Positions 36,487 through 37,699 of a stretch of DNA of 64,000 nucleotides are shown here, piece after piece. The stretch covers positions 1 to 64,000 of the forward strand of contig JAEOTR010000057.1 of assembly GCA_016839705.1 (NCBI GenBank). Reading direction: 5' to 3'. The position numbers and the translations under genes are program-made. The first letter of the stretch is position 1. Each line of letters begins with the position of its first letter. The DNA is from Promethearchaeota archaeon. Lineage in GTDB: Archaea; Asgardarchaeota; Lokiarchaeia; Sigyniarchaeales; SOKP01. The notes beneath the pieces are model-generated. The model was not told where the DNA came from and made no database searches. It saw nothing but the letters and a program-made list of their open reading frames with translations.

Positions 36487-37218
36487 TTAATCTTCCCTAC
36501 TTTTTAAATGATCCATTATTTTAAGATAAATATCTTCCTTTGCATCTGGTTTGTTTCCAAAATTACTAGATTTTATAATAGATGGTAATTTAATCAATTC
36601 TTTTTTCGTATTAATCTCTAAAATTTTCGGATTTTTTGCGATCCACGATGGATTATGCGCTAAACCACTTACGTCATATTCAAGTTTTATTTTAACATTA
36701 GTTTTGAATTTTCCTTGTAAAAATTCTAATAATTCGCTTTTAATATTTACCACTAAGCTATTTATAATTGAATCAAAATTTTCGTAGAAAGGATTGATTA
36801 ATTTTTCCTCTACTAAATTAAAATTATGATTTGAGTCTAGAAATATTGCCCCAGATAATGCTTCAAAGACATCTGCTAAAATCCTTGTTCCCTTTATTTG
36901 CTGATTTCCACTTTTGAAAATAAAATTTTGTAAATTTATTCTATTTGCGACTATTTTTAAAGTGTTATCACTTTCTAATAAGGCTTTAATTTTAGTAATT
37001 TTTCCAGGATCTTGTATGCCCTGCTTATATAATTTTAATATAAATACTAGCTTTATTACCGCATCCCCGAGTGTTTCCAAATATTCATAACTAAGCTCTC
37101 CAGTTTCATTAGCAAGTCTTGGGGTTGTTAGGGATTGTACTAGATAATCTTCATTCTTAAACCTATAGCCAATAAAATCTTGAATTTTTCTTAATTTTTC
37201 TTCCTTGTTCATTACCAT
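36487..37218 (-). CDS. rnc: Ribonuclease III (RNase III domain + dsRBD-like C-terminus)
   Basis: Signature SYEYLETLGDAVIKL and second catalytic motif ILADVFEALSGAIFLD; C-terminal IKSELLEFLQGKFKTNVKIKLEYDVSGLAHNPSWIAK...DAKEDIYLKIMDHL. Confidence 0.85.
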   Translation of the reverse strand: MVMNKEEKLRKIQDFIGYRFKNEDYLVQSLTTPRLANETGELSYEYLETLGDAVIKLVFILKLYKQGIQDPGKITKIKALLESDNTLKIVANRINLQNFIFKSGNQQIKGTRILADVFEALSGAIFLDSNHNFNLVEEKLINPFYENFDSIINSLVVNIKSELLEFLQGKFKTNVKIKLEYDVSGLAHNPSWIAKNPKILEINTKKELIKLPSIIKSSNFGNKPDAKEDIYLKIMDHLKSRED

Positions 37219-37276: not shown

Positions 37277-37699
37277 ATGGAAGGAGGAAATAAAGATAAA
37301 ATTCTTAGAATGATTGATGAAATTGAAAAAAAAAACTCAGAGATTGAAAATTATATTTCTAGTTTAGCAATTTTAACACGAAATGAATCCTTAAAGGAAA
37401 TCATGAAGGATATCATTGAAAAAAACAACATTCTACAAGAAATAGAAGGATCTAAAAGACCACACTTACACACTATAATAGATGAAAAAACAAGTTTTTT
37501 ACGTGAAAAGGTAGATAATTTTCTTTCTAAGATTCAAGAAAATCCTGCCAAAAAAATAATATATCTGAGAGAATTTCTTGATAATTTTGAGTCAATATCG
37601 AAAAATGATAAAGAAGTAATACTCAACTCCTTACAGGATGAGAAAAATAAGGATAAATTAAAAGAAAAAATGACTTCCTTAGTCACGATTTTTTTATAA
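37277..37699 (+). CDS. Hypothetical charged/helical protein
   Basis: 140-aa ORF with ATG; no recognised domain. Confidence 0.55.
   Translation: MEGGNKDKILRMIDEIEKKNSEIENYISSLAILTRNESLKEIMKDIIEKNNILQEIEGSKRPHLHTIIDEKTSFLREKVDNFLSKIQENPAKKIIYLREFLDNFESISKNDKEVILNSLQDEKNKDKLKEKMTSLVTIFL

Follow-up and report, generated by a model that had tools for sequence, protein, structure and literature searches.

A class-1 RNase III long resident in Lokiarchaeia, with an intact catalytic set and a diverged dsRBD

Results

An RNase III gene with class-1 architecture

The stretch of DNA analysed here (the window; 64,000 nucleotides of a Lokiarchaeia genome) carries on its minus strand a single intact ORF of 243 codons, starting with ATG, which had been predicted from the sequence alone to encode a complete RNase III with all four catalytic acids and a dsRBD-like tail. 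The features of the locus are:

36487-37218, minus strand: RNase III gene (rnc-like), 243 aa; ATG-start ORF with Pfam matches PF00636/PF14622, a sub-cutoff match to TIGR02191 and relatives in the PDB
36760-37206, minus strand: helical endonuclease domain, residues 5-153, from the AF2 model and Foldseek
37057-37089, minus strand: signature motif YEYLETLGDAV, residues 44-54; E45, E48 and D52 correspond to E. coli E38, E41 and D45
37003-37011, minus strand: D70-P71-G72, with Pro at the position of E65 (E. coli) or E64 (A. aeolicus)
36862-36882, minus strand: second catalytic motif ILADVFE, residues 113-119; D116 and E119 correspond to E. coli D114 and E117
36493-36744, minus strand: diverged C-terminal dsRBD, residues 159-242, from hhalign, the alpha-beta-beta-beta-alpha AF2 model and motif statistics
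37277-37699, plus strand: divergent 140-aa protein, function not assigned; no Pfam family over cut-off

Searched against Pfam, the window protein matched PF00636 (Ribonuclease_3; 4.3e-16, 60 bits against a cut-off of 27) and PF14622 (Ribonucleas_3_3; 4.2e-14, 53.3 bits against a cut-off of 35). The NCBIfam model TIGR02191 matched residues 15-190 at 98.4 bits, short of its equivalog cut-off of 166.25, and we therefore name the protein an RNase III homologue and not a TIGR02191 equivalog. In a PDB search its closest solved structures are RNase IIIs from bacteria, with Dicer and Drosha next. Both motifs quoted in the original prediction are present, and alignment to E. coli RNase III bore out the catalytic assignment: all four metal-binding acids (E41, D45, D114 and E117) are kept, a glutamate also occupies the E38 position, and the sole altered acidic position is E65, which has become Pro. 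That Pro recurs in 19 of the 21 family members sampled. The four catalytic acids are invariant across the family sequences (21/21), with E48 and D52 invariant in group A2 as well, whereas some are lost in other Asgard RNase IIIs. In the AF2 model the pLDDT of the nuclease domain is mostly 82-96, lower at residues 141-153, and Foldseek aligned the domain with the nuclease domain of A. aeolicus at a TMt of 0.76-0.80.

On the window protein alone, neither PF00035 nor a dsRBD profile gave a significant match. In wider Asgard alignments the same tail reads KxxLxEfxQ...GPDH...KKxA, and profile-profile comparison (hhalign) of 34 Loki-family tails with RNase III dsRBD profiles returned probabilities of 92.9-95.4%, against 0.3% for the control. 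The AlphaFold model (mean pLDDT 87 and pTM 0.62 over the whole protein) folds the tail as alpha-beta-beta-beta-alpha, with a helix at 159-171, strands at 175-186, 189-201 and 207-209, and a helix at 223-242. Foldseek aligned this model over about 240 columns with the RNase IIIs of A. aeolicus, T. maritima and E. coli at an overall TM of 0.5-0.6, a value probably due to how the two domains are placed with respect to each other. On profile and model, then, the tail is a diverged dsRBD, in keeping with what had been suspected. Its RNA-binding motifs are partly eroded in the window copy, which has GLAH for the usual GPDH/GxEH and KPDA for the usual KKDA; the motif-3 position, Lys in 28 of the 34 family tails, is Pro. 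With KK changed to KP and GPDH to GLAH, affinity for RNA duplexes may be reduced. We confirm that the window gene encodes an RNase III superfamily member with class-1 architecture (one RIIID plus one C-terminal dsRBD).

The gene is an old resident of its Lokiarchaeal family

The Asgard background that had been supposed for the gene holds. The genome belongs to Lokiarchaeia, archaeal-type ribosomal proteins S3Ae and S15 are encoded on the same contig (18.2-19.4 kb), and the ten relatives found in a genome-contig search all come from Lokiarchaeota/Lokiarchaeia MAGs. In these ten MAGs the order of neighbours (GDPD, Zn ribbon, 134 aa, divergent 140 aa, RNase III and often an ABC ATPase and permease) is kept whole or in large part, at RNase III identities of 43-67%, and synteny at the locus extends across Lokiarchaeia genera. 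Binning contamination, raised at the outset as a possible source of the gene, was rejected on the S3Ae/S15 genes and this local synteny. The divergent 140-aa protein lies head-to-head with the RNase III gene in 8 of 8 relatives whose stretch covers that side and is a possible functional partner of RNase III. The two start codons are 58 bp apart.

A genome search, counted by hand, recovered a window-clade protein at 260-400 bits in 48 of 65 family genomes and in 17 of the 19 genomes of its own genus, and the clade extends to family f4 of the same order (L068, L107). By contrast, all five genomes in genus g7 lack a window-clade RNase III, two of them being rated 100% complete; thus, the gene is dispensable over evolution. 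The window RNase III is shown to be an old resident gene, with long vertical inheritance in the family and occasional loss. RNase III domains of any kind occur in 152 of 228 Asgard genomes. RNase III has been described as nearly universal in bacteria and rare in archaea (PMC5303251), and the original prediction likewise called it rare in archaea; the literature does say so, but for Asgards that rarity is outdated.

Phylogeny and origin

The bacteria in our trees, drawn from plasmid and phage records and PDB chains, are a narrow sample, and the archaea are Asgards only; the domain is short, the branches are long and the deep ones are weak. Among the Dicer and Drosha rows, plant sequences were PDB chains, and human Dicer and Drosha sequences were checked against PDB chains. 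The window protein and 20 family members form one clade (100/99) on a long stem, joined by two family f4 sequences (100/97). In three trees, within limited bacterial sampling, this clade lies outside every sampled bacterial clade, and not inside a recent one, which had been named as an outcome that would refute the original prediction; the best bacterial identity to the window protein is about 30-35%. The best trees leave the Asgard class-1 RNase IIIs, the window clade included, divided among at least four separate lineages. Forcing the Asgard sequences together costs 6.8-16.3 log units, yet the AU test does not reject one joint Asgard clade (p 0.184; 0.051 with another sample). Forcing all bacteria together is not rejected either (AU p 0.316). 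In one tree the window clade is sister (98/93) to the Argonaute-linked Asgard clade L062/L067/L073/L074. With a short domain, long branches and narrow bacterial sampling, any deep placement of the window clade is tentative.

Ancient acquisition by the Loki lineage is the likeliest reading of the origin. Its fuller form, in which a bacterial gene was transferred when this Lokiarchaeia order arose, or earlier, and then descended vertically, with several Asgard acquisitions overall, is one that we favour with caution: the separation of the Asgard lineages in the best trees, the cost of joining them and the presence of the clade in family f4 argue for it, while the AU results for a single Asgard clade, the weak deep branches and the narrow bacterial sample argue against. 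Ancient transfer concerns origin and is compatible with the function that we favour below. That the gene came recently from a bacterium by horizontal transfer, or that the contig is bacterial contamination, is by comparison very improbable. The class-1 architecture is bacterial, nearly all bacteria have RNase III (PMC5303251), and the genome bin is rated 6.8% contaminated, but the contig is archaeal by its S3Ae and S15 genes, local gene order is conserved in ten MAGs, and the long-stemmed family clade, at its low bacterial identity, sits apart from the bacteria sampled. Contamination or recent transfer from sampled bacteria is unlikely because the contig is archaeal and its gene order conserved. 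A single-protein search of viral contigs found no close relative of the window RNase III, and a profile search found two distant relatives; phage and plasmid records held RNase III of bacterial type only.

Ribosomal RNA stems and Dicer kinship

Maturation of rRNA is the classical role of bacterial RNase III, and the bulge-helix-bulge (BHB) is a splicing-endonuclease signal. Counting as usable those genomes with a complete 23S locus (G141 was excluded, a contig end interrupting its locus), we found a BHB motif in the 23S flanking stems of 6/6 usable carriers of the window RNase III (G025, G159, G020, G145, G009 and G012) and of 3/3 genomes without it. The motif lies in the same place, at about -31 and +22, and its score was reached by 0 of 60 shuffles in each genome. 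G065 failed the strict BHB scan, with a near-BHB visible by eye; no 23S match was obtained from the window genome itself, and around 16S no stem stood out clearly from the shuffles. Since the BHB is kept in RNase III carriers, primary 23S release looks archaeal, by the splicing endonuclease, with RNase III not its main agent.

The BHB helices vary among Loki genera, with AAGC/GCTT or GAGC/GCTT at the centre and varied outer helices (L141, L173-L179, L181). Matches to 16S break near model position 496 in G034 and G002 (L134, L135, L138-L140), which suggests insertions or introns in their 16S genes.

The original prediction also took the gene to bear on the origin of dsRNA processing; a direct bearing on the eukaryotic process is not supported, as the trees do not group the window clade with Dicer and the genome has no Argonaute. 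A specific kinship with Dicer, weak with one Dicer sequence (85/29), was gone once the RIIIb domains of DCL1/3/4 were added, and the four Dicer RIIIb sequences form a clade of their own (100/100) apart from the window clade. A joint clade of the window clade and Dicer is not supported by the trees, and the AU test does not firmly reject it (p 0.062); one that also takes in the L062 group is not rejected (AU p 0.156), and the trees give it no support. Both the change of E65 to Pro and the lengthened spacing that follows the D-x2-E helix could be shared relics of an early Asgard RNase III ancestral to the window clade, the L062/L067/L073/L074 clade and Dicer RIIIb, though we give this only a slim chance. 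A profile search found no Piwi-domain match in the window genome (G000), and no Argonaute or helicase partner lies beside its RNase III. Just 4 of the 48 family genomes carrying the window clade have a Piwi match.

Argonaute-linked RNase III genes in other Asgard lineages

Comparing RNase III with Piwi positions, we found five genomes, from five families, in which an RNase III gene and an Argonaute gene lie no more than about 3 kb apart (rough chance expectation about 3e-8 for five of twenty Argonaute-bearing genomes). These loci, and the stretches over which a gene order around Argonaute is conserved, are:

Argonaute-adjacent loci: L161 (G039), L162 (G178), L163 (G090), L164 (G042), L165 (G013)
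Conserved Argonaute gene order in three Asgard families: L163:3837-13264; L164:7830-17999; L169:3-8123

The RNase IIIs of G039, G178 and G090 form one clade (support 99), to which the G042 type does not belong. G090 and G042 share a gene order in which RNase III is followed by Argonaute, an MkoA-like SF1 helicase (Mokosh system), a protein of about 360 aa and one of about 520-610 aa; G088 (L169) has the same order from Argonaute onward, the RNase III side being lost at the contig end, and over all three families the last protein measures about 520-625 aa. Identity among these loci is 34-45% for the helicases and 24-29% for the last proteins. We regard the RNase III-Argonaute-helicase gene set as a candidate system of several genes for RNA silencing or defence.

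In part from its eukaryote-like Argonaute (817 aa, with PAZ and Piwi domains), G042 is probably 'Ca. Harpocratesius repetitus'. An Asgard rnc beside Argonaute is already published from this Lokiarchaeon, in a paper that calls its rnc-HrAgo1-helicase cluster unique (PMC11217426). We did not find in the searchable literature an association of RNase III with Argonaute in other Asgard families with the second RNase III clade; here the association recurs beyond the G042 type, which alone appears to be published.

Catalytic residues differ among these other Asgard enzymes. Asn replaces the catalytic Asp114 in 5 of 13 sampled sequences of a Loki order/class set (L003, L063, L012, L025 and L029); L003, which lies in G042 beside the HrAgo1-like gene, reads KANFIEA at the D114 motif, so its activity may be compromised or it may serve as a partner. 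G178 has another RNase III copy (L167:8110-8865), 78% identical to the Argonaute-linked one. Near it, a fragment (L167:9084-9662) looks by eye like a TnpB zinc finger, which suggests mobility of this RNase III type.

Discussion

The window protein shares with bacterial class-1 RNase IIIs (E. coli Rnc, A. aeolicus 2nug/2ez6, T. maritima TM1102) the nuclease and C-terminal dsRBD, the four acids and a full-length structural match. It differs from them in sequence (about 22-30% identity), in the Pro at E65, in a dsRBD whose strand region is longer and whose third motif is degenerate, and in lacking the linkage to era/lepB or acpP/smc seen in the bacteria shown. The rnc of the HrAgo1 operon of 'Ca. 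Harpocratesius repetitus' (PMC11217426) is likewise an Asgard class-1 RNase III with a dsRBD, but it belongs to another clade (L003), adjoins Argonaute and an SF1 helicase, and has Asn for D114 in G042. With Dicer RIIIb the window protein has in common the RNase III fold, a Pro in place of E65 and a lengthened spacing behind the D-x2-E helix; Dicer, however, combines a helicase, PAZ and two RIIIDs, whereas the window protein is a single RIIID plus dsRBD of 243 aa. Asgard family B (L064, L077, L096 and others, from f8 and some Loki) has the PF00636 domain in common with the window protein and differs in an N-terminal extension of about 120 residues, the lack of a dsRBD, and the changes of E41 to Ala and D114 to Thr. 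Among family B members L064, L066, L071 and L077-L103, common in f8, each of these changes is found in 15 of 16.

We consider it probable, from sequence, model and analogy, that the window protein is a functional class-1 RNase III of Lokiarchaeia, a homodimer cutting dsRNA, whose most likely role would be non-essential turnover or processing of long duplex RNA. RNase III works as a homodimer that cleaves duplexes by a two-metal-ion mechanism, with binding assisted by the dsRBD. In the window enzyme, the two nuclease domains of a homodimer would make one cleavage valley, each site would hold Mg2+ through E48, D52, D116 and E119, and the C-terminal dsRBDs would grip the duplex; dsRNA would be cut to leave short (2-nt) 3' overhangs. 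Candidate substrates may include antisense transcripts, structured mRNA and invading or viral dsRNA. The eroded dsRBD, the change of E65 to Pro and the score below the NCBIfam equivalog cut-off are points against full function.

Primary 23S rRNA release and production of Argonaute guides are both less likely than duplex-RNA turnover. That the window RNase III cuts the 16S/23S processing stems, as in bacterial rRNA maturation, is suggested by this being the classical job of the bacterial enzyme and by the strong stems that flank Asgard 23S genes; we nonetheless think it improbable, for the BHB motif sits in the same place with or without the gene, and the gene is missing from the whole genus g7. 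Even less plausible is a proto-Dicer that makes small RNA guides for Argonaute. Here the adjacency of other Asgard RNase III genes to Argonaute genes (one case in PMC11217426) and the Pro and longer DSG..L..V spacing common to Dicer RIIIb are outweighed by the separate Dicer RIIIb clade, the scarcity of Piwi matches across the family and the lack of an Argonaute or helicase neighbour; guide production is unlikely in the window genome because it holds no Piwi match. A regulator that binds dsRNA without cutting it could be read from the Pro at E65 and from the losses in other Asgard RNase IIIs, namely D114N in the L003 group and E41A with D114T in family B, but this, too, we judge highly improbable: the four metal ligands are kept in the window protein and in 21/21 family members, and the dsRBD is the part that is eroding, the reverse of what is expected for a binder. 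The duplex-RNA turnover role remains because the rRNA and RNAi ideas both came out against.

Accounts of the origin of RNAi have taken RNase III to be a bacterial contribution, since it is rare in archaea (PMC5303251). Because class-1 RNase III is widespread and long resident in Lokiarchaeia, that premise needs to be re-tested with Asgard sequences. The RNase III genes tied to Argonaute in other Asgard lineages make an archaeal dsRNA-to-guide pathway directly testable, and the window gene, with its full catalytic set in a genome without Argonaute, is a good control for a housekeeping function.
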